Assembly (NCBI GenBank): GCA_002084425.1
Contig: NBLN01000007.1
Coordinates: 1 to 64,000, forward strand
Length of the DNA stretch: 64,000 nt
DNA from: Desulfobacteraceae bacterium 4572_130
Lineage (GTDB): Bacteria > Desulfobacterota > Desulfobacteria > Desulfobacterales > Desulfobacteraceae
Reading direction: 5' to 3'
Positions 16,514-58,400 of the stretch are shown here, piece by piece. The position numbers were made by a program, and so were the translations under genes. Numbering within the stretch: the first letter of the stretch is position 1; each line of letters begins with the position of its first letter. Below the pieces are notes generated by a model that ran no database searches, was not told the origin of the DNA, and was given only the letters and a program-made list of their open reading frames with translations.

Positions 16514-17332
16514 ATGAATCATAAGGATGGTGATATAGATATATTATACAAATACCGAGATTTAGATGAGAAAGATGAGGAAAAAATGCAATATGTTGAA
16601 CGAATTTTTTCACATAATGAACTATATTTTTCAAATATACTAGACTTTAATGATCCTTTTGATTGTAAACCTCATTTTTCATCAGAATCAACTGATAAAG
16701 AATTTAAGGATTATCTATTTTCAAAATATCATTATTTAAAATCGAATATTACTCGTCAACAAAAGCGTGCAGAAATTAGAACATTAATGAAAGATAAACA
16801 GCTAAAGGAAAATATGGCACGCAAGTTGGAAGATGACTATCAAATAAGAATCAGCAAAAAAATTGGAGTTTTATGTTTATCAGCAATATCAGATAATATT
16901 TTAATGTGGTCTCATTATGCTGGATCACATTCTGGAATATGTATAGAATTTGAGGCAACATCCTATACCGAGTTTTTTGGTTTAGCTGATAAAGTTGATT
17001 ATGAAAAAGATTATCCTGTAGTTAATATCATTAAAGATGCTGGATATAATATGGCTAAGAAAGTTTTATTGACAAAATCAAAAGATTGGAAATATGAGAA
17101 AGAATGGAGGATTATTAATAAAGATGCTCCTCCTGGCAGCTATAAATTTCCATCAGGTTTTTTAAAGGGAGTTATTTTGGGTGCTAAAATAGGGAAAAAC
17201 AAGGAAAAAGTTTTGTCTTGGGTAAAAAAATCTAAACATCCTATTAAAGTTTACCAAGCTAAATTAAAAAAGTATGAATACGGTCTTGATATTAAACTAT
17301 ATAATGAATTTAATCATCAAGCTAAAAATTAA
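16514..17332 (+). CDS. DUF2971-family protein
   Basis: 272 residues with the DUF2971 signature: an early LYKYRDLDE, LYFSNILDFNDPFDC and the diagnostic ILMWSHYAGSHSGICIEFE, followed by DKVDYEKDYP and WKYEKEWRII. The molecular function of the family is not established as far as I know; members are frequent in accessory and phage- or defence-rich DNA. It lies just before a HigBA toxin-antitoxin pair on the same strand, so this is a small accessory patch between icd and lepB. Start ATG follows GGGAG. Confidence 0.85.
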   Translation: MNHKDGDIDILYKYRDLDEKDEEKMQYVERIFSHNELYFSNILDFNDPFDCKPHFSSESTDKEFKDYLFSKYHYLKSNITRQQKRAEIRTLMKDKQLKENMARKLEDDYQIRISKKIGVLCLSAISDNILMWSHYAGSHSGICIEFEATSYTEFFGLADKVDYEKDYPVVNIIKDAGYNMAKKVLLTKSKDWKYEKEWRIINKDAPPGSYKFPSGFLKGVILGAKIGKNKEKVLSWVKKSKHPIKVYQAKLKKYEYGLDIKLYNEFNHQAKN

Positions 17333-17368
17333 TTTGAAATAACACGACATCCGTGCTATTGTGTGTTT

Positions 17369-17662
17369 ATGATACATTCATTTAAAAATAAAGCTACAAA
17401 GGATATTTTTAATGGTAAGTCAACCAAAGGAGCAAGGAAAATTTGTCCGGAAAATCTTTGGAAAATTGCATATAGAAAACTTGATCAATTGGATTCTGTT
17501 ATAATGCTTGATGAACTTCAAGTTCCTACTGGAAATAGATTAGAAATGCTGGCAGCAGATAGAAAAGGGCAATACAGCATTAGAATAAATAATCAATATC
17601 GTATTTGTTTTATATGGACAAAAAATGGTTCAATTGATGTTGAAATAACAGATTATCATTAA
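17369..17662 (+). CDS. higB: HigB-like toxin (RelE/ParE superfamily)
   Basis: Plasmid-maintenance killer protein; HigB toxins are ribosome-dependent mRNA interferases. The 97-residue protein has the family pattern MIHSFKNKATKDIF, RKLDQLDSVIMLDELQVPTGNRLEML, QYSIRINNQYRICFIW and VEITDYH at the C-terminus, including the arginines of the RelE-fold active face. The ATG at 17369 is preferred over an upstream GTG at 17363 because MIHSF matches the family start. The antitoxin gene follows 28 bases later, the toxin-first order normal for higBA. Confidence 0.93.
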   Translation: MIHSFKNKATKDIFNGKSTKGARKICPENLWKIAYRKLDQLDSVIMLDELQVPTGNRLEMLAADRKGQYSIRINNQYRICFIWTKNGSIDVEITDYH

Positions 17663-17690
17663 TATTTAAAATTATAAGGGGTTGTATAAA

Positions 17691-18020
17691 ATGATACAGA
17701 TACCCAGCCATAGAATACCGACCCATCCTGGTGAAATGCTGTTACAGGAATTTTTAAAACCAATGGGCATAACCCAGAAAGCCTTGGCTAATGCTATTAA
17801 TGTTCCCTATCAAAGGATAAATGAAATAGTTAATGAAAAGCGTGGTATTACTCCAAGCACGGCATTAAGACTTGCAAAGTTTTTTAAAGTTTCTCCAGAT
17901 TTTTGGATGAATATTCAGTTAAGAAGGGACCTTTATTTTGCAAAAAAATCTGAATCAAATGTATTAAGCAATATTAATTCACTAACTATAGATCATCTTG
18001 TCAAAACTTCTAGCTGTTAA
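17691..18020 (+). CDS. higA: HigA-like antitoxin (XRE family)
   Basis: DNA-binding antitoxin for the adjacent HigB; it neutralises the toxin and represses the shared promoter. About 109 residues from the ATG at 17691 (after AAGGGG), with the HigA N-terminus HPGEMLLQEFLKPMG, the helix-turn-helix TQKALANAINVPYQRINEIVNEKRGITPSTALRLAKFF and the tail SPDFWMNIQLRRDLYFA. A TTG at 17682 is an alternative start. The operator should lie between the DUF2971 gene and higB (17333-17368). Confidence 0.94.
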   Translation: MIQIPSHRIPTHPGEMLLQEFLKPMGITQKALANAINVPYQRINEIVNEKRGITPSTALRLAKFFKVSPDFWMNIQLRRDLYFAKKSESNVLSNINSLTIDHLVKTSSC

Positions 18021-21290: not shown

Positions 21291-21428
21291 AATAATTTTA
21301 ATATCCCCCTTTCTTTTTTACATATTTTTACAATCGCAAAAAACATTTGGCTTTATATTTTTACATATGTAAAAGTTTGTAAAAAAATAAATTTTATAAT
21401 GGCACTAAAATTATGGGAGGAAAAATAT

Positions 21429-21794
21429 ATGACTGGCTTAAATTACATTCACAAAGCTTTTCAGGTTTTACAAAATTATAAAGAACTTGGTGCAACTGAT
21501 TTTAGAAACTTAAATATTATTATTCCCTTGCTTGATTTTAATGGGTTTATAAATAAAAAAGATTTAATTAATAATTTATTTAAAAACAGTAAAAATCCTG
21601 ATGGAGCTTATAGAAATTTTTTATTTAGACTTCAATCAGGGATAGAAAATGCAATAGAGGTAGCAAACAAACAAAATAAAGAAAATGATGCTGAATTATT
21701 AATGTCCATTAAAATTATTAAAATCAGTAAAACAAAAGCATCTCATGCTTGTGTACAATTTATAGCTGATAATATGATCCTGAAAATTTTATAG
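21429..21794 (+). CDS. Small protein, probable displaced N-terminal domain of the TIR-NACHT protein
   Basis: 121 residues from ATG 21429, preceded by a strong GGGAGG. The product is helical in appearance (YIHKAFQVLQNYKELG, FINKKDLINNLFKNS, GIENAIEVANKQNKEND) with no recognised family. After FIADN the frame ends MILKIL-stop, but the plus-two frame reads YDPENFIESKVVDFTK straight into the methionine of the TIR protein at 21821 without a stop, and that methionine has no Shine-Dalgarno sequence. This suggests one original protein with an N-terminal adaptor-like domain of about 135 residues, split by a one-base deletion near 21770. It may alternatively be a true small partner translated by coupling. 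Confidence 0.6.
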   Translation: MTGLNYIHKAFQVLQNYKELGATDFRNLNIIIPLLDFNGFINKKDLINNLFKNSKNPDGAYRNFLFRLQSGIENAIEVANKQNKENDAELLMSIKIIKISKTKASHACVQFIADNMILKIL

Positions 21795-21820
21795 AAAGTA
21801 AAGTTGTTGATTTCACTAAA

Positions 21821-24800
21821 ATGCCTAAAGATAATGCAATTAAATTATTTATTAGTTATGCTTCAAATGACAAATTTATTGTTCAGGCATTTAAAAATCG
21901 TTTTAATAAATATTGTGAAAAAAATAAAAACAAAAAAATTTCTATAATTCACTGGTCAATGGATGATTTAATTGTTGGAGATAATTTTGATTATAAAATA
22001 AAAGAATCTTTAAAAAGTTCAAATTATGGACTTGCTTTAATTTCTGAGGCTTTTTTTGATAGTCCCTATATCACTGATGTTGAACTTAAATATTTATTAA
22101 AACAAAAAAAACTTTTACCAATTGGACTTGAAAGTAAAATTAAAGGTAAAAATGTTGATATTAAAAAATTTCGCAAATCCATTATAAAAAAATATCCCAA
22201 CAAATCAAAAATTAAAAAACTTTTTGAAACACAAATTTTTTATCTTAAAGATAGAAAAGGTGATTTTTATTCAGATTGTGATGAAAACGCTCAGGATTTA
22301 TTTATAAGAAATTTATATATAGATATTCAAAAAGCTGTTTTACAAATAAAAATCAAACAAGAGAACCAGATAAAAAAGCAAAAAGAGAAACAATGTCGCA
22401 TAAAAGGCATACACGCTACTAGCAGAGCATCAGACTATGATAAAAATGAATTTATCAAAACTAAAGGCGAACTTGATTTAGTTAATTCTGAATTACATAA
22501 AAATATAATAAAACGTGCTAACCTTGAGGAATTAGGAAGAATTACTCAGTATGATGCTTTGGACGATATGTTTAACTGGCTTAAATATAAAAAATCAGGT
22601 TTATATGCTCTTTTAGGTGATTATGGCATGGGAAAAACCTTTACTTGTCGTATGTTTGCTCTTGAATTGGAAAAAAAATGTAAAAAAGATTTAAGTTTAC
22701 CAAAACCTGTTTATATGGATTTAAGAGATATTTCAACTTTTGTAAAACATAAAGATATAACAAGACAGCCTAATTTAGAAGAAATGATTGAAGATATAAT
22801 CAGATTTGTTTCAAATGCTGAGGATTATTCTGCAAAAGATATAATTTCTGCATCACAAAAAGGCAAACAAGTTATTATTTTTGATGGGCTTGATGAAAAA
22901 TTGGTTTATTATACAAAAGATATGCGAAGTCAGTTTTTAAGACAATTGTTAAAAATATTTCCTCAAGAAGAAACCTCAAATATCGTTAAAATTATAATTT
23001 CCTGCCGTACCCATCATTTTGAAAGCATAATAGAACTAAATAGTTTTTTATTGGGATTTCAAAGAAGCGGCATAAAAGGTATAAATTATAGAGCATTAAA
23101 TCTTTTGCCTTTTTCTTTAACTCAAGTTTTATCTTTGCTTACTAAATTATTTGGAAAAAATGATGCAAATAATATTTTTTCCTTTATTAAAAATGAAAAA
23201 TATCTAAAAGACCTTGCAAAACGGCCTCTTATGCTAAAACAATTATCAAGTACTTTACCTGAATTAAAAAAACAAAAAGATAAAGATATTTCAATAAATT
23301 CTGCAAGTTTTTATAAGGCTTTAATAAATGATAATATTAATCGTGATCAAGAAAAACATATTTTAAAGCCCCGTCATAAAAAAAAGCTTTTAATGGAATT
23401 ATCTGCAAGTTTATGGAAGGATTCTTCTCAAATATGGAAAATAGATGATTTAAATGACTGGTTTCAAAATTGGTTAAACAGTGATGATACATTATATAAA
23501 CAATATAGTAATCAAGAAAGCGATGTACTAGAACGGGATTTACGAAATTCCACTTTACTTGTGCGTTTTGGAGATAATGATTTTGGTTTTTCTCACAGTT
23601 CTATACAAGAGTATTTTTTAAGTAAATGGCTTTTACAAAAATGGCAAAAACATTCTAATTTTAAATTAAACAATTCAATTTCTAATTTAACTAAGCAATT
23701 TGTCATAGATAATATTGAATTTTTAAGTCAAAAAGAGCTTATAAAACTAAATAAAGGAATAGAAAATATCTTTGCAAAAAAATATTCGAGTGAATCAGAA
23801 TTAGCTATTGATATAATAACACAAATGGCAAAATTAAATATTAAAACTCCAATGTTTGAAAAAATTGATTTAACTAATGCAAAATTGCAAAATATAAAAA
23901 TACAAGGACTTAATTGTAAAAATCTTATTTTAAATAATACAAATTTATTTAACAGCAAATGGAAGAATTGCATATTTAATGAATTAGAAATTAATAATGC
24001 TGATTTAAGTGAAAGTTTATGGGAAAAATGCTTTTGGCATCAAGTTAATATAAATAAAATTCCCTTAAAGCTTTTAAATAATTTAACTTTTGTTCAATGC
24101 AATATTCCAGATGATATTAATAAATCATATTTAAAAACCTGGCATTATATACCTTTTAACTCTAAATTTAATCGTAAAATTACAAATGAATTTTTTACTT
24201 GTAATGATTTTCAAGTTAGCAGTTTCAACTTTGTTGATGCTTGTGCTTTTAGTCCAGATGGAAAATATATTATTTCAGGCTCAGGTGATAAAATTTTAAA
24301 ACTTTGGGATTTAAAAGGAAATTATATTAAGAATTTTAAGGGACAGTCAGATATTGTTTTCAGTTGCAATTTCAGCTCTAACGGAAAACATATTATTTCA
24401 GGATCAGATGATGGAACTTTAAAGCTCTGGGATTTAAATGGAAACATCCTTAAAACTTTTAAGGGACATTCAGATTTAGTTAGCACTTGCGGTTTCAGCC
24501 CTAATGGAAAATATATTATTTCAGGCTCAGATGATCAAACTTTAAAACTCTGGGATTTAAATGGAAATATTCTTAAAATTTTTAAAGGACATTCAGGTTG
24601 GGTTAGAACTTGCGGATTCAGCCCAAATGGAAAATATATTATATCAGGATCATCTGATCAAACTTTAAAATTTTGGGATTTAAATGGAAACATCCTTAAA
24701 ACTTTTAAAGGGCATTTAGGTTTTGTTTATTGTTGCGATTTCAGCCCTGATGGAAAACATATTATTTCAGGATCAGATGATGGAACTTTAAAGCTCTGGG

Positions 24801-25252
24801 ATTTAAATGGAAACATCCTTAAAACTTTTAAAGGGCATTCAGGTTTTGTTTTAAGTTGTAGGTTCAGCCCAGATGGAAAACATATTATTTCAGGCTCATT
24901 AGATCAAATTTTAAAGCTCTGGGATTTAAAGGGAAATATCCTTAAAACTTTTAAGGGACATTCAAGGTTTGTTGGGACTTGTTCGTTTAGCCTAGATGGA
25001 AAATATATTATTTCAGGATCAGATGATTCAACCATAAGAATCTGGGAAGTAAATACAACAGACACAAAGTTTATATATAGCAGTTTTCAAGAACAATGGT
25101 ATTCCATTGAGTTTGAAAAAAATAAATTAAAAAAAATTAAAGGTACAGAACTTTCATGGAAAATGGCAAGGTTTAAACAGAATAGAAAATCATATTTTTT
25201 TGATGATTTTAAATGCTTTGAATATCATCCAAGTAAACAAATTTCAAAATAA
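21821..25252 (+). CDS. TIR-NACHT-pentapeptide-WD40 STAND protein (NLR-like)
   Basis: 1143-residue signalling NTPase of the kind used in bacterial anti-phage immunity and programmed death. Order: TIR domain (about 1-130; LFISYASNDKF, SPYITDVELKYLL with candidate catalytic E88); NACHT/STAND NTPase (Walker A GDYGMGKT at about 266, Walker B VIIFDGLDE at about 351, then PLMLKQLSSTL); a short pentapeptide-like stretch (about 683-730, LTNAKLQ, ADLSES); and seven WD40 blades (about 805-1079), enough for one beta-propeller. The known logic of such proteins is propeller sensing, NTPase oligomerisation and TIR cleavage of NAD; that is inferred here. Base use matches the host. The upstream small ORF is probably its N-terminus. 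Confidence 0.9.
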   Translation: MPKDNAIKLFISYASNDKFIVQAFKNRFNKYCEKNKNKKISIIHWSMDDLIVGDNFDYKIKESLKSSNYGLALISEAFFDSPYITDVELKYLLKQKKLLPIGLESKIKGKNVDIKKFRKSIIKKYPNKSKIKKLFETQIFYLKDRKGDFYSDCDENAQDLFIRNLYIDIQKAVLQIKIKQENQIKKQKEKQCRIKGIHATSRASDYDKNEFIKTKGELDLVNSELHKNIIKRANLEELGRITQYDALDDMFNWLKYKKSGLYALLGDYGMGKTFTCRMFALELEKKCKKDLSLPKPVYMDLRDISTFVKHKDITRQPNLEEMIEDIIRFVSNAEDYSAKDIISASQKGKQVIIFDGLDEKLVYYTKDMRSQFLRQLLKIFPQEETSNIVKIIISCRTHHFESIIELNSFLLGFQRSGIKGINYRALNLLPFSLTQVLSLLTKLFGKNDANNIFSFIKNEKYLKDLAKRPLMLKQLSSTLPELKKQKDKDISINSASFYKALINDNINRDQEKHILKPRHKKKLLMELSASLWKDSSQIWKIDDLNDWFQNWLNSDDTLYKQYSNQESDVLERDLRNSTLLVRFGDNDFGFSHSSIQEYFLSKWLLQKWQKHSNFKLNNSISNLTKQFVIDNIEFLSQKELIKLNKGIENIFAKKYSSESELAIDIITQMAKLNIKTPMFEKIDLTNAKLQNIKIQGLNCKNLILNNTNLFNSKWKNCIFNELEINNADLSESLWEKCFWHQVNINKIPLKLLNNLTFVQCNIPDDINKSYLKTWHYIPFNSKFNRKITNEFFTCNDFQVSSFNFVDACAFSPDGKYIISGSGDKILKLWDLKGNYIKNFKGQSDIVFSCNFSSNGKHIISGSDDGTLKLWDLNGNILKTFKGHSDLVSTCGFSPNGKYIISGSDDQTLKLWDLNGNILKIFKGHSGWVRTCGFSPNGKYIISGSSDQTLKFWDLNGNILKTFKGHLGFVYCCDFSPDGKHIISGSDDGTLKLWDLNGNILKTFKGHSGFVLSCRFSPDGKHIISGSLDQILKLWDLKGNILKTFKGHSRFVGTCSFSLDGKYIISGSDDSTIRIWEVNTTDTKFIYSSFQEQWYSIEFEKNKLKKIKGTELSWKMARFKQNRKSYFFDDFKCFEYHPSKQISK
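24233..25057 (+). repeat. Seven in-frame 123-bp WD40 repeats
   Basis: The WD40 part is built from seven units with an exact 123-base (41-codon) period where measured (GGAAAA at 24260, 24383 and 24506). Units 2 and 5 are nearly identical in nucleotides over long stretches (for example GATCAGATGATGGAACTTTA). Differences concentrate in the few codons after GHS and at the residue before FSP. This indicates recent amplification or gene conversion of blades. Confidence 0.85.
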
Positions 25253-50551: not shown

Positions 50552-50663
50552 ATGTATGTGATTTTCCTTTGTTTATATTTAAGGCATATGATTTTATTGA
50601 TATTTCTTTATAAGAAAATAAAACAAAGCATGGCATGGTTTAGCAGAATAACTAAATAATTTT

Positions 50664-51119
50664 TTATACTTTAAATTGAGCACTGATTTTAAAGATGTCT
50701 GTGGCAGGAAGATTTAAGATATTAGCAACACCTGTTTTTTCAGATATTTCTTTTAAATTTTTTTTAATTTCATCAGGAGAAGAAGCTATAAATGTAAACC
50801 AGATATTATATTTATGTTCACGCATATAATTATGAGTAACACCTGAATAGGAATTAACAATTTTTACAAATTTATCAATTTTTTCATTACTTACTTTTGC
50901 TGCACATAATGTACTGTAAAATCCAAGTTTTTTAGGGACAAAATTTGCTCCAATTCTTCTAATAATTCCATTTTTTTTAAGATTTTTAATTCTTGAGATT
51001 ATTTGTTTCTCAGAAAGATTAAGTTCTAAACCAATTATTTTGTAAGGTCTTGAATCTATTGGAAAAGAATTTTGAATTCTATTAATAATTTTTTTGTCAA
51101 TATCATCAATATAAGTCAT
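50664..51119 (-). CDS. Siroheme decarboxylase subunit (AhbA/AhbB, Lrp/AsnC type)
   Basis: 151-residue protein with an AsnC-like helix-turn-helix (DIDKKIINRIQNSFPIDSRPY) but the AhbA/AhbB/NirD-L hallmarks NGIIRRIGANFVPKKLGFYSTLCAAKV and GVTHNYMREHKYNIWFTF. It decarboxylates siroheme to didecarboxysiroheme, the substrate of AhbC encoded at 34.8-36.0 kb. Normally AhbA and AhbB act as a pair; only one is in this window. Which of the two it is cannot be settled. It lies just downstream of dsrC on the same strand, beyond a terminator. Confidence 0.9.
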   Translation of the reverse strand: MTYIDDIDKKIINRIQNSFPIDSRPYKIIGLELNLSEKQIISRIKNLKKNGIIRRIGANFVPKKLGFYSTLCAAKVSNEKIDKFVKIVNSYSGVTHNYMREHKYNIWFTFIASSPDEIKKNLKEISEKTGVANILNLPATDIFKISAQFKV

Positions 51120-51193
51120 TTTATTTTTTTCATATTTTTATTAGGTTATAGTTTATTATTTTATTTTAAATAAAATAATATATCAAAAAATAA

Positions 51194-51232
51194 AAAAAGG
51201 CTTTGCAAATTTAAAAAATGCAAAGCCTTTTT
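51194..51232 (-). terminator. Rho-independent terminator of dsrC
   Basis: Perfect 14-bp inverted repeat: AAAAAGGCTTTGCA at 51194-51207 and its complement at 51219-51232, loop of 11 bases. Read on the minus strand it is a GC-containing stem followed by a U-rich tail, 29 bases after the dsrC stop codon. Confidence 0.88.
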
Positions 51233-51260
51233 GAGTAAAATTATAAAATTTTAGTTAATA

Positions 51261-51578
51261 TTATACACATCCTGTAGGTTTAGGAAGACCTGCCATTTTA
51301 CATGCTCCTTTACCAGGGCCTGAGGGGAAAAGTTCATAAATGTGTTTAAGTTTAAATTTTGTAAGTTTAGAAAGAACACGAACCATTGGTGCAATACCGT
51401 TTTTTTCATAATAGTCCTGAAGAATTGTAACAACTTTTGTATGCTCATCAGTTAATTCATCAATACCTTCCTGTTGTCTTACATACTCAACCCATTCATC
51501 TGAAAAATTATTATAATCAAGTAAGAAACCATCCTCATCTATTTCAAATTCTTTTCCATTTATTTCTACTGTTGCCAT
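51261..51578 (-). CDS. dsrC: DsrC, sulfur-carrier partner of dissimilatory sulfite reductase
   Basis: 105-residue TusE/DsrC protein that carries sulfur as a trisulfide from dissimilatory sulfite reductase to membrane or Hdr-like reductases. The flexible C-terminal arm GACKMAGLPKPTGCV holds both redox cysteines, ten residues apart, ending one residue after the last Cys, so this is a true DsrC rather than a TusE-like paralogue. Other family features: DGFLLDYNNFSDEWVEYVRQQEGI and YYEKNGIAPMVRVLSKLT. It has its own strong promoter and terminator. It follows the bifurcating cluster on the same strand. Confidence 0.97.
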   Translation of the reverse strand: MATVEINGKEFEIDEDGFLLDYNNFSDEWVEYVRQQEGIDELTDEHTKVVTILQDYYEKNGIAPMVRVLSKLTKFKLKHIYELFPSGPGKGACKMAGLPKPTGCV

Positions 51579-51657
51579 TACTTCCTCCTGTAAAAAAAAA
51601 GTTTTTTTTTTATAAAAATATAATTACTGTATAATCTTAAAAATTGTTAATTTTATA

Positions 51658-51686
51658 ATATTAAATTAGCAATCTTTTCTTGTCAA
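51658..51686 (-). promoter_or_regulatory. Sigma70 promoter for dsrC, minus strand
   Basis: TTGACA (51686-51681), a 17-base spacer and TAATAT (51663-51658) on the minus strand, about 80 bases before the dsrC start codon at 51578. It fits the high, separate expression known for dsrC. Confidence 0.65.
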
Positions 51687-51830
51687 TAAGAAATTAATTG
51701 GGGATAAAAACTCTTTATATAGTTTACTTAAATTTTTTTAAGATTTTATCAACATACTACATATATGCCCATGTTTTTTTTTATATACTACAATTTGTAC
51801 ATAAGGCTATTTTATTTTTTTATAATGCCA

Positions 51831-52691
51831 TCAATATTCCTTTGGAGTTTTATTAATTTCCTCTAAGGTAAATACAGGGCCATCTTTACAAACTAATTCC
51901 TTGCCAATATTACATCTTCCACACATGCCTATTCCACATTTCATTCTATTTTCAAGAGACATTATAATTTGTTTTTCATTGTATCCAAGTTTTTTTAAAG
52001 CAGGTTCTGTAAATTTAATCATAATAGGAGGTCCACATACAATAGCATATGTATTTAAATCAGCTTTTGGAGCTTTTTTTTCAACTATTGCAGGCACAAA
52101 TCCAACATTATATTTCCAATCAGAATCATTAGTTCCATCAACTGTTATATGCATATTAATATCATCTCTTGTTTCCCATTCATAAAGTTCATCTCTATAA
52201 AGAAGCATACCAGGAGTTCTTGCACCATAAACAACATCAATATTACCAAATTGTGATCTATTAGCAGGATCAAGCATATATATTATTGAGGATCTTAATG
52301 TTGTAAAGGCAAAACCACCACCAATAATAACAACATTTTTACCTTTAAGCATATCCCATGGATACCAGTTGCCTAAAGGACCTCTAATACCCATAATATC
52401 ACCAACTTTCATATTATGAAGATGTGATGTTACAACTCCTGTTTTAAATACTGTAAATTTTACAAATCCTTTTTCAACTGGAGAAGATGCTATTCCAATG
52501 GGAATTTCTCCTATGCCGGGAATTGAAAGTTCAGCAAACTGACCAGCTTTATACAAGGAAAATTTTTTTTCATCTTGTTTATTTAAAAAAACAAATTTAA
52601 ATGTTTTAAGGGATTTATCCTCAGTTGCAATTTTAATGTCATCAATTACAACAGGATATGGTATATAGGGATTTTCCATTTGTTTCTCCAT
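51831..52691 (-). CDS. flxA: FlxA-like FAD/NAD(P)-binding oxidoreductase
   Basis: 286-residue ferredoxin-reductase-like protein of the sulfhydrogenase-gamma/PyrK/AsrB group: an FAD domain (FAELSIPGIGEIPIGIASSPVE, HNMKVGDIMGIRGPLGNWYP), an NAD-binding domain (NVVIIGGGFAFTTLRSSI, IVCGPPIMIKFT) and a C-terminal [2Fe-2S]-type cysteine cluster ENRMKCGIGMCGRCNIG with a later VCKDGP. In flxABCD-hdr operons FlxA exchanges electrons with NAD(P)H. It is the last gene of the cluster that starts at 61581. Start ATG 52691; MENPYIPYP five residues later is an alternative. Confidence 0.9.
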   Translation of the reverse strand: MEKQMENPYIPYPVVIDDIKIATEDKSLKTFKFVFLNKQDEKKFSLYKAGQFAELSIPGIGEIPIGIASSPVEKGFVKFTVFKTGVVTSHLHNMKVGDIMGIRGPLGNWYPWDMLKGKNVVIIGGGFAFTTLRSSIIYMLDPANRSQFGNIDVVYGARTPGMLLYRDELYEWETRDDINMHITVDGTNDSDWKYNVGFVPAIVEKKAPKADLNTYAIVCGPPIMIKFTEPALKKLGYNEKQIIMSLENRMKCGIGMCGRCNIGKELVCKDGPVFTLEEINKTPKEY

Positions 52692-52764
52692 CTATATTTC
52701 AAATTTTTTGCTGAGATTGCACTATCAGCAGATTTTTACATTTTATATTTTTAAAATTGCTCTT

Positions 52765-53823
52765 TTAATTGTCTGTGTCTGGTTCATGAGAATTCATTAA
52801 ATTGCATACTTTTCGAATATCAATATTAACAGGACATAGTTTAACACATCTGCCACATCCTACACACATTATGCCATTGTCATATTTATCTAGAAAATAT
52901 TTTAGTTTATGCATAAATCGTTGTCTTACCCTCATAGTTTTTTCACCCCTTGGATTATGTCCAGAAGCATGAAGGGTAAAAAGTGGTGACATACATGTAT
53001 CCCAGTTACGAATTCTATATGATAAATTTCCCTTTGTTTCATCTTGTATATCAAAACACCAGCATGTTGGACATACAAAGCTGCATGTGCCGCAGTTTAT
53101 GCAGGAAAATGCTATATCATCCCAAAATGGTGCTTCATATAAATCAAGGGTATTTTTATCTTTAAGATTTTGTGTTGAGATTTGTGAAGATATGGCATTT
53201 TCTGCCTTTTTTTTCATATTATTTATGATTTCAATAGCTTTTTTATTATCTGTTTCTTGATTAAATCCTGCAACATCAAGAAATGCCTGACCTTTATCTG
53301 TTAGAACTTTTGCCAAATATTCTTTGCTGCAATCAATTAATAAAACATCAAGCCCTTGTTCTGCAAAGGGACCTGTGTTTGTTGAACTAGAAAAATCAAA
53401 TACAGATGGATTATTTACAGCAAGTCCTATAAATGTTGTTGCTTTATATGCCTCACACCAGTAGGGGTCTTTATATTCATCAGTATCAAAATTTAAGTTT
53501 AAAATTTGAATTGCCTTTGCATCATAGGGTTTTATACTAATTACAGCTCTTTTAGAATAATCTTTTTTAACTTGTTTCATTATATGGTGGTCATCAATTG
53601 ATTCATCAAGATTGGTTTGAAGTATTTTTTCTGTTTGGGGAAAAAGAATAGACTTGGGAGAAACAAGAGTATCTTTGTGTTCCATATCTGGATATTCATC
53701 TAATTGAAGTTTTTTAAATATATAATTATCTTTTTCTTTTACAGGTCCAAAAAGCTGATATTCTTTTTTTGACTGGTTAATTCCATTTTCCCAGTCTTTT
53801 TTATTGATTTTTATGACTTTCAT
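52765..53823 (-). CDS. flxB: FlxB-like 4Fe-4S protein (AsrA/sulfhydrogenase-beta type)
   Basis: 352 residues. The first two thirds resemble the sulfhydrogenase-beta/anaerobic sulfite reductase A domain (KRAVISIKPYDAKAIQIL, DEYKDPYWCEAYK, TFIGLAVNNPS). The C-terminal third has two 4Fe-4S binding sites (CINCGTCSFVCPTCWCFD and CVGCGRCVKLCPVNIDIRKV) and WDTCMSPLF. It passes electrons between FlxA and FlxC or HdrA. It lies 74 bases upstream of flxA and 138 downstream of flxC on the same strand. Confidence 0.88.
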   Translation of the reverse strand: MKVIKINKKDWENGINQSKKEYQLFGPVKEKDNYIFKKLQLDEYPDMEHKDTLVSPKSILFPQTEKILQTNLDESIDDHHIMKQVKKDYSKRAVISIKPYDAKAIQILNLNFDTDEYKDPYWCEAYKATTFIGLAVNNPSVFDFSSSTNTGPFAEQGLDVLLIDCSKEYLAKVLTDKGQAFLDVAGFNQETDNKKAIEIINNMKKKAENAISSQISTQNLKDKNTLDLYEAPFWDDIAFSCINCGTCSFVCPTCWCFDIQDETKGNLSYRIRNWDTCMSPLFTLHASGHNPRGEKTMRVRQRFMHKLKYFLDKYDNGIMCVGCGRCVKLCPVNIDIRKVCNLMNSHEPDTDN

Positions 53824-53864
53824 ATTTGAACGCCTTTTTTAAAAATTTAGTGGCTTTATACTAT

Positions 53865-53960
53865 TATAAAAGAATTTATAATTACTTTGATATTCTTTCA
53901 TGTTTTTTTGTGAGGCAAATTAAGAAATAAAAGTCGGATCTGCCTTTCTGCCTTATAGGA
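53865..53960. repeat. Dispersed about 95-bp element between flxC and flxB
   Basis: AAAAGAATTTATAATTACTTTG, TATTCTTTCATG and a degraded end GGATCTGCCTTTCTGCCTTATA match the family at 11315-11405 and 40570-40662. It is inserted inside the flx gene run, so it is probably transcribed with it. Confidence 0.55.
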
Positions 53961-53961
53961 G

Positions 53962-54918
53962 TTATTTAATAAAGCTGTCATCATCCTTAAGACTGAATGT
54001 ATCCAGTAAAGGTCTTTTAGTTATATCAAGACCTGCTTCCCATCCATATATTTCATAGGAGTCTTTTATAAGTTTTCTTGTAAAATCTCTTACATTAATA
54101 TTCATTGGACAGGCTTGAACACATGCTCCGCAATCTGTGCATCTTCCAGCACAGTGATATGCTCTCAGAAAATGAAATGTTTTAATATCTGTTTTGTCTT
54201 GACCCTTGCCTACCCACTGGGGATTTGATTCATTAACAAAACAACTGGGGCAGTAACATAATGGACAGGCATTTTTGCAGGCATAACATCTAATACAATC
54301 TTTTAAAAGATTATCAAAATAATTCCATTTATCTTCTATGCTTAAACTTTCAATTTTTTTAACATCTGCAAATTGATCCTCAATTTTTTGTTCTTGAACA
54401 AGTTCTGCTGCAAGTTCGTCATAGATCACAGGATTTCTATGCATACAGGTTTTACAATTTGATTTAAGATAATCACTTTTTTTAAGATTTTTTTCTATTA
54501 AACCTGATTTTACAATAATGTCTTCTCCATTCTCAGAATAATCTGTAATATCATCATTAAAATTGGACTGAAGTTTTATTTTGTCTATCATTCCAGTACA
54601 TGGAACACCAATTATATGAAGCTTGTCCCTTGAAATTTTATTTTCAGTTATATGGGTAACAATATTTCTTGAATCACATCCCTTGGCAATTATACCAATT
54701 TTTTCTTTTTTATCAGAAATAAAATTGGCAAGGTTGATTCCACAATTACTGTCCCAGATAAATTCTTTTGTTTGTTCAATATTATGTGCTGCCATAGGAC
54801 TTACTGCCATGGGTATGGTTCCTTTTTTAAAACCAATAACCATATCAACTTTATTATTTTTTAAAAGATTAGAGGAAAGTTCTCTTATATTTTGTGTTAA
54901 TTTATTCATATAGCCCAA
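53962..54918 (-). CDS. flxC: FlxC-like 4Fe-4S protein
   Basis: 318-residue iron-sulfur protein. The N-terminal two thirds resemble F420-hydrogenase/formate dehydrogenase beta-type domains (IGIIAKGCDSRNIVTHI, HIIGVPCTGMIDK, NCKTCMHRNP). The C-terminal third binds two 4Fe-4S clusters (CIRCYACKNACPLCYCPSC and CTDCGACVQACPMNINVRDF). Its gene lies 4 bases after flxD, so the two are co-translated. Its role in an Flx-Hdr complex is electron wiring between flavin subunits. Confidence 0.87.
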   Translation of the reverse strand: MGYMNKLTQNIRELSSNLLKNNKVDMVIGFKKGTIPMAVSPMAAHNIEQTKEFIWDSNCGINLANFISDKKEKIGIIAKGCDSRNIVTHITENKISRDKLHIIGVPCTGMIDKIKLQSNFNDDITDYSENGEDIIVKSGLIEKNLKKSDYLKSNCKTCMHRNPVIYDELAAELVQEQKIEDQFADVKKIESLSIEDKWNYFDNLLKDCIRCYACKNACPLCYCPSCFVNESNPQWVGKGQDKTDIKTFHFLRAYHCAGRCTDCGACVQACPMNINVRDFTRKLIKDSYEIYGWEAGLDITKRPLLDTFSLKDDDSFIK

Positions 54919-54922
54919 CCCC

Positions 54923-55345
54923 TTAATCTAATGTTTTTACAAATTTATTATTAGGTTCCAAAGCTCTTACAGCATTTGTTACCTCTTTTGCCACATTTAC
55001 AAATTTTGTTGCTTCAGCAGAAGAAATCCATGAAAAGTGAAGTCTTTGTTTTTCAATTCCCATGTGTTCAAGAAGATTGCCCATTAAAGCAAATTTTCTT
55101 CTAGCATAATAATTACCTTCCAGGTAATGACATTCACCAGGATGTCAGCCTGAAACCCATACTCCATCTGCACCCTGTCTAAATGCAGAAAGAATAAATT
55201 TAGGACTTACTCTTCCAGTACATGGTACTCTTATTACTCTAATATCAGCAGGATACTGCATTCTGCTGACTCCTGCTAGATCTGCTGCACCATAGCTGCA
55301 CCAGTTACATAAAAAAGCAACAATTTTTCTTTTTTCTTTGGTCAT
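54923..55345 (-). CDS. flxD: FlxD/MvhD-family protein with in-frame UGA, probable selenoprotein
   Basis: MvhD-type [2Fe-2S] protein that links hydrogenases or Flx subunits to HdrA. The frame runs from ATG 55345 (SD AAAGGAG) through an in-frame TGA at 55147-55145 to TAA at 54925-54923, giving 140 residues, the usual MvhD length. The TGA replaces the conserved Cys in the MvhD motif (VSG[12 protein letters not shown]), Sec67 by my count. Downstream residues remain family-like ([19 protein letters not shown]). A hairpin with a UGGAA loop lies 17-33 bases after the UGA. Selenocysteine MvhD proteins are known in some methanogens and sulfate reducers. Confidence 0.88.
55112..55128 (-). other. Candidate bacterial SECIS hairpin of flxD
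   Basis: On the coding strand ATTACC and GGTAAT form a 6-bp stem around the loop TGGAA, starting 17 bases after the UGA; the loop begins at base 23. Position and a guanine-containing apical loop fit SelB-recognised bacterial SECIS elements. It lies inside the coding sequence (HYLEGNY). Confidence 0.65.
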
Positions 55346-55415
55346 TTGTAATATCTCCTTTGGTACACTTTGAGAGCTTTGAATTGTGAAAAACTAATTA
55401 TTCCAATGCCTCACT

Positions 55416-58400
55416 TTATACTGCTTTATCCAATGCATATATTTGTGCAAATATTTGATTTGTATCAAAACCTTTAAGATGAATAGCACCTGATCTGCAT
55501 GATGATACACACAAACCACATCCCTTGCATAAAATTGGATTAATTTCTGCTTTATCTTTAAATCTTCCCTCAGTTGTAAATAAAGGTGCAGAATATGGAC
55601 AAATAGATACACATATACCGCAGGAGCTGCAATACATGGGATTAATATCTGCAACATTACCACTAGTATATAAATTGTCTTTTTTAGACAAAAGAGTAAG
55701 TGCTCTTGATGCAGAAGCTTTTGCCTGAGTTACAGCTTCATCCAAGGATTTTGGATAATGGCATGAGCCACAAAGAAAAACTCCATCTGTAGCAAATTCA
55801 GCAGGTCCAAGTTTTGCGTGTTTTTCCACAAAAAAGTTATCTTCATTAATGGGAACTTTAAAGAAATTTGCAAGTTTTTCATCTTTATTAGGAACAATTG
55901 CCGTTGCAAGAGTAACAATATCAGGTTTAATTTCCAGTAACATATCAAGGATATGATCCTTTACTTTTACTGATATCTCATTTCCCTTTGTTGTAACTTC
56001 AGGTTTAGCATTAACATCATATCTTATAAAAATAACACCTATATCCCTTGCTTTTTTATAAAGTAATTCTTTTTCACCATAAGTTCTAATGTCTCTGTAT
56101 AAAATATAAATATCCATTTCAGGTTTTTTAGTTTTTAAAATAATGGCATTCTCTATGGAGTGTGTACAGCAAACCCTTGAACAATATGGTCGTTTAGTTT
56201 CCCTTGAACCAACGCATTGAATAAAGACAGCAGAATTTATATTATTAATTTCAGGATCATTTTTAATAAGCATTTTATCTAAATCAAGACTTGTAATTAT
56301 TTTAGGGTTTTCTCCAAAACAATATTCACTGGTTTCACAACCCTTTGCACCTGTTGCAATAATTGCAATTCCATGCTCTATTTCAAAATCTTTTTCCTGT
56401 TTTAAAAGTTTTGATTTAAAATTACCCACAAAGCCATCAACACTTTTTAATGTTGTATTAAGATGTATTTTTATTTTGTCCATTGAACTAACATCATTAA
56501 TAAGCTGTTTTAGTTTTAATTGGACATCTTCTCCCTTTGCTGTTCTATAAAGTTTTAAAGCCTGTCCCCCAAGAAAGTTTTGCTGTTCAATAATATGAGT
56601 TTCATAGCCTTGACTTGCAAGACTTTTAGCAGCAGCCATTCCTGCAATTCCACCACCAATAATTACAACTTTTTCATTTAAATTTATTTTTTCTTCTGTA
56701 AGAGGCTCTGCAAGACCAGATTTTGCAACTGCCATTCTAACAAGGTCCTTTGCTTTTTCCGTGGCAAGGTCAGGATTGTTTTTGTGAACCCAGGAGTTTT
56801 GATTTCTTATATTAGTCATTTCAAAGAGATATTTATTAAGACCTGAATTTGTTAAAGTCTCTTGAAATAAAGGCTCATGTGTTTTTGGAGTACATGCTGC
56901 AACAACAACTCTATTAAGATTTTTTTCTTTAATATATTCAACCATTTTATCTTGAGTATCTTGGCTGCATGTATAAAGACTTTCCTGTGCAAATTCAACA
57001 AAGGGAAGTGTTCTTGCATATTCAGTAATTTCAGCACAATTTACAACACCATTAATATTTGAACCACAATCACATACAAATACACCAATTCTTGGTCTTT
57101 CTCCTGTTACATTTATTTCAGGAACAGATTCAGGAATTTTTGTAAGAGTATTTCTTGCCTTACTCAAACTATCTCCTGCAGCAGAAGCAGCAGCACTTGC
57201 ATCAAGAACAGATTCAGGAATATCTTTTGGTCCATTAAAAGCACCGGCAACATATATTCCATCTCTTGATGTTTTTACAGGTTCAAAGGAATCTGTTTTA
57301 CAAAAGCCATTTTCTGTAATTTCAATTCCTATTTTTTCAGCAAATTTTCTTGTTTCATCAGGAATTTCAATACCAACAGAAAGAACAATTATATCAAATA
57401 TTTCAGTTTGTATAACCCCTTTTTCATTTACATATCTTACTTCAAGGTCATTAGTATCTGGAACTTCTGTAATTGAATGAGCTCTTGATCTAATAAAATT
57501 AATGCCATGTTTTTCCTTTGCATTTTGATAATATCTTTCAAATTCCTTGCCCGGAGTTCTCATGTCCATGAAAAAAATTGAACAATCAAGGTCATCACCT
57601 TGATGCTCCTTTGCAATCATTGCTTCTTTTATAGCATACATGCAACATACTGAACTGCAATAGGAATTATCGCATTTATTAGTGTCCCTTGAGCCTATAC
57701 ATTGAAACCATGCAATTTTTTTTGGTTCTTTATTATCTGATAATCTTGTAAGATGTCCCTGTGTAGGGCCTGATGCTGATAAAATACGCTCAAACTCCAT
57801 AGTTGTCATTACATTGGGGTAATTTGAGTACATATAATTATCAAATTTAGATGGATCAAAAGGTTTAAAACCAGGGGATAAAATTACTGAACCCACATCA
57901 ATTTCAATGATCTCATCTTCCATGGAGTGATCAATGGCATCCATTTGACATACTTCAGTACAAATTTGACATCCACCTGTTTTAAAATGCATACATACAT
58001 CTCTATCAATGGCAGGATTATTAGGCACTGCCTGGGCATATGGCACATAAATTGGTTTTCTGCCTTTAAGACCCATTTCATATTCTGAGGGAATAATAAA
58101 AGGATTTTTCTTTGTAATTTCATTCTTAATTTTTTCAAGAGTGATATGACCCGTAGGACATACTGATGCACATGCACCGCATGCTAAACATGTATCTGAT
58201 TGAATCCCGAAAGGGGTATCAATTTTCATGTCCACACCGCGACCGGTTAGACTGATGGCACTGTTTCCCATTTTTTCACACATGCGGACACAAAGACCGC
58301 AAAGGATACAATCGTCATCCTGTTTTGGAAATCGTACGGTTTCGATTTCATACTCTTTTGCCAGTTTCTTTAAAAGCGGTACTTCAGGGCATCTGGCATA

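Follow-up and report, generated by a model that had tools for sequence, protein, structure and literature searches.

Layout of the locus

We analysed a window of 64,000 nucleotides (29.5% GC) from Desulfobacteraceae bacterium 4572_130, a member of the same order as Desulfosarcina. The genome of 4572_130 (1.94 Mb, 80% complete) is spread over 24 contigs. On its forward strand we observed two adjacent ORFs. ORF1 (21429-21794) encodes 121 residues, has an alternative longer start at 21399, and is preceded by a Shine-Dalgarno-like GGGAGG (21414-21419) a few bases ahead of its ATG at 21429. The main ORF (21821-25252, 1143 residues) begins after a gap of 26 bases and in a different frame, with no Shine-Dalgarno-like motif in the sequence ahead of 21821. 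Its frame is open back to 21773, with a TAA directly before, and over 21773-21820 reads YDPENFIESKVVDFTK into the methionine of the TIR domain, with no start codon of its own. Both frames are open over the 22 bases from 21773 to 21794. An earlier sequence-only reading of this DNA had described the two ORFs, the 26-base gap and the open second frame, and had noted a ribosome-binding motif ahead of ORF1 and none ahead of the main ORF. Re-reading the sequence confirmed all of these points.

The main ORF encodes a TIR-NACHT-WD40 protein. Its TIR domain, with the linker that leads to NACHT, occupies 21821-22360 and matches Pfam TIR_2 above the cut-off (E=4e-9; 37.4 bits, cut-off 28). Within it, the glutamate of SPYITDVEL aligns with a glutamate conserved in most TIR-type relatives, which we take, from general knowledge of TIR domains, to be the putative catalytic residue. 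The NACHT NTPase module (22550-23640) scores slightly under the Pfam NACHT cut-off (E=8.7e-5; 22.8 bits, cut-off 26.7) and exceeds that of NPHP3_N; it contains a Walker A motif (GDYGMGKT) and a NACHT-type Walker B motif (VIIFDGLDE), both conserved among relatives. A pentapeptide-like stretch follows (23855-24030; Pentapeptide_4, E=2.6e-5, under the cut-off), and seven WD40 repeats (24230-25050; E=6.4e-81) form a predicted beta-propeller, presumably the sensor. The Pfam matches and motifs bear out the earlier reading's account of these four elements. PADLOC made no confident defence system call on the locus.

About 4 kb upstream of ORF1, at 16514-17332, lies a gene for a DUF2971 protein with a strong match (E=5e-61) to PDC-S31, which PADLOC lists as a candidate defence family. 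It adjoins a HigB-like toxin and HTH antitoxin pair (17363-18020).

ORF1 and the NNH6 domain

We found that ORF1 matches the Pfam family NNH6 (PF22737, "NACHT N-terminal Helical domain 6") with E=3.7e-4 and 21.1 bits, under the cut-off of 27. The same family scores above its cut-off in relatives in which the domain is fused to NACHT, at 40.7 bits in a Bathymodiolus endosymbiont (L036) and 27.3 bits in a Desulfosarcina sp. (L050, genome G111). To guard against circularity, we rebuilt a family HMM without the window protein, L036 and a Campylobacterota relative (L025). ORF1 scored 18.2 bits on this held-out HMM, and the best of 500 shuffled versions of ORF1 scored 7.0. ORF1 is 33% identical to the fused N terminus of L025 and 28% identical to that of L036, and Pfam called NNH6 in all 58 aligned domain sequences, the window's included (best E=6.7e-35). 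A direct BLAST comparison of ORF1 with the L050 N terminus was not significant, and the connection between these two required intermediate relatives. Sequence searches with ORF1 alone against viral contigs, plasmids and 58 related genomes returned nothing usable, and a first scan of genome contigs with the whole main protein gave no match. Taken together, these matches indicate that ORF1 is the start of a protein of known type, whose N-terminal domain is already catalogued as NNH6.

The predicted structure of NNH6 (pLDDT 92) consists of helices and a small beta pair, with a loosely winged-helix-like arrangement, and the model had no significant fold match in the PDB or among viral models. A search of solved structures by sequence returned MTW1 as its best hit (E=7e-4), which we attribute to chance helical similarity. 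A model of the NNH6 and TIR portions of L025 (pTM 0.46) has two domains with a disordered stretch between them (residues 112-141, pLDDT below 50) and is uninformative on how the domains pack.

Fused relatives

We searched for related loci with the NACHT regions of the window protein and of the L050 protein, and scored domain presence by reading each ORF that held a NACHT match. The resulting set comprised 75 loci: 71 from many phyla, one of which is L050 itself, and four from the source genome and its relatives. The N-terminal domain is in frame with NACHT in 59 of the 75 (in L077 only in part) and absent from 13. At the remaining three (L038, L040 and L044) it is out of frame or past a stop, and all three are broken copies by inspection. 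In none of the 75 is NNH6 an intact separate gene. Between NNH6 and NACHT, Pfam assigns PNP_UDP_1 to 32 and TIR_2 to 18 of 57 fused relatives, and three changes of effector label suffice on the NACHT tree, one TIR label (L068) being unsure.

Two of the fused proteins, L025 and L036, are the nearest relatives of the window protein, and a third comes from the same order. The Desulfosarcina protein (L013/L050) is a single ORF of 1537 residues with the order NNH6, TIR, NACHT, pentapeptide-like stretch and WD40, and has 27% identity with the window protein along its length. A Plasticicumulans relative (L030) is likewise intact and full-length. The Campylobacterota MAG HM1-3a (L025) encodes NNH6-TIR-NACHT in one ORF that is 45% identical in NACHT and is the sister of the window protein in the tree, with support of 100/99. 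The endosymbiont protein (L036) has the same order in a single ORF and is 46% identical in NACHT over the part covered. The contigs of both L025 and L036 stop before any WD40 region could show; many contigs end early, and WD40 counts in relatives are crude.

The sequence-only reading had proposed searching for such fused homologues, and the search found the expected order of N-terminal domain, TIR and NACHT in single ORFs. The case that it had named as refuting a split, a small protein encoded separately in relatives, did not appear. Its description of ORF1 as a novel N-terminal adaptor domain gives way to a Pfam family found in frame in most NACHT-bearing relatives, and its view that an added domain ahead of TIR is unusual was a false lead, now removed: across a broad family, NNH6, effector and NACHT normally share one ORF in this order.

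Several further loci stood out. In an Actinomyces locus (L038, 3756-4143), a stop codon interrupts the NNH6-effector linker, where the window's copy is also broken. That species has a related copy (L083) that is intact. The source genome also carries an intact paralogue of about 1680 residues (L021; G000:C7, about 50660-55710), in which an ATPase-like N-terminal region (PRRFGKTSL) replaces NNH6 ahead of TIR, NACHT and WD40. L037, L053 and about 30 others are NNH6-PNP_UDP_1-NACHT proteins, whose NACHT modules are related but bear a phosphorylase where the window protein has TIR.

A probable frame break between NNH6 and TIR

The 16 residues that precede the TIR methionine out of frame with ORF1, YDPENFIESKVVDFTK, align without gaps to the in-frame linker of L036, YEDENFEPNIAKDTHK, with a score of 24. 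This is one comparison with one relative, in a register fixed by the TIR start. A score of 24 was reached by 187 of 200,000 shuffles and by one of 26,621 open 16-mers of the window, presumably YDPENFIESKVVDFTK itself; a free local alignment was weaker, with its score reached in 910 of 20,000 shuffles. Codon preference, trained on 22 ORFs of the window, gives the ORF1 frame +44 bits up to about 21770-21771, where the remaining frames score -103 and -181. From 21773 on it favours the TIR frame, at +5.9 compared with -11 and -47. ORF1 is thus coding. Its last six residues, MILKIL, do not look coding-like, scoring -0.5 in their own frame and +3.9 in the TIR frame. Because the linker homology and the codon preference agree, we place the switch of coding frame at or just before 21773-21794.

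We conclude that the locus is very probably a gene of the known NNH6-TIR-NACHT-WD40 kind in which a frame break in the NNH6-TIR linker, within or next to 21773-21794, has severed NNH6. Counted against this is that the match of ORF1 to NNH6, by itself, lies under the Pfam cut-off. The earlier reading had suggested that a one-base deletion split a larger protein, or that ORF1 is a coupled partner of the main protein. The split holds, and the coupled partner finds no support among relatives. A one-base deletion would be only one of the possible lesions: the distance from NNH6 to the matched linker is about 13 residues longer in L025 and L036 than in the window, so that any insertion or deletion of matching phase would fit. 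As sequenced, the locus would yield NNH6 as an isolated fragment and at most a poorly initiated TIR-NACHT-WD40 protein; the gene has therefore either been damaged recently or carries an error of the one available assembly. A further point against the frame break is the 1143-codon remainder, undamaged in a genome of 29.5% GC, so that the break would have to be recent or the remainder still useful alone.

We weighed three other readings against a severed NNH6. A small NNH6 protein might act in trans, its translation coupled to that of the main ORF. This would agree with the good Shine-Dalgarno sequence of ORF1, the short gap, the undamaged downstream ORF and the linker stop of the Actinomyces locus. 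A bacterial NLR that is normally one chain would then exist as two subunits, with free NNH6 regulating TIR-NACHT-WD40. We nevertheless consider it improbable, given that intact separate genes are missing from all 75 relatives, that the coding signal lies in the out-of-frame linker and not in the MILKIL tail, and that 21821 has no Shine-Dalgarno sequence.

Programmed frameshifting could instead fuse the two ORFs into one protein, as the 22-base overlap of the frames and the homology that runs across it would allow. We found no -1 slippery heptamer (X XXY YYZ) in the phase required for a shift from ORF1 to TIR, however, and relatives read through in a single frame without any shift, which makes this very unlikely. 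That ORF1 is an unrelated small gene lying by chance before the TIR-NACHT gene is hardly credible: the non-significant pairwise comparison with L050 would fit, but the NNH6 match, the held-out HMM and the identity to the fused N termini of L025 and L036 all speak against it.

Proposed working and comparison with known systems

The locus belongs to a widespread family of NLR-like STAND proteins of bacteria, in which NNH6 is followed by an effector (TIR or nucleoside phosphorylase), NACHT and often WD40. It is an ordinary bacterial NLR-like gene with a presumed anti-phage role. By analogy with NLRs known from bacteria and eukaryotes, the WD40 propeller at the C terminus would sense an infection cue and the NACHT module would bind ATP and oligomerise. 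The clustered TIR domains, as putative NADases, would then consume NAD+ and thereby halt phage production in the infected cell. NNH6, a small helical domain, is retained across swaps between TIR and phosphorylase effectors, so a part in assembly or regulation is more likely than one in catalysis. A domain that stays constant while the effector varies on related NACHT modules may interest specialists, and its proposed assembly or regulatory role is testable.

Among known systems, bNACHT and Avs STAND defence proteins consist of an N-terminal effector, a central STAND NTPase and a C-terminal sensor (PMC12169576, PMC10907252), a tripartite layout that the window protein shares. The bNACHT clades described in PMC12169576 carry either a nuclease or no obvious effector and, compared by description only, are unlike the window protein, which has TIR. 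The TIR-NLR system of E. coli P4-like satellites, which blocks phages (PMC9122126), would by its name likewise join a TIR effector to a protein of NLR type. The NACHT proteins of Pfam NNH6 (PF22737) have the same N-terminal domain and the same order of NNH6, effector and NACHT. In contrast to these, NNH6 in the window is divergent, scores under the curated cut-off and lies in another frame, in an ORF separate from that of NACHT. The NNH6-phosphorylase-NACHT proteins (for example, L037 and L053) share both the NNH6 and the NACHT family with the window locus, with PNP_UDP_1 replacing TIR.
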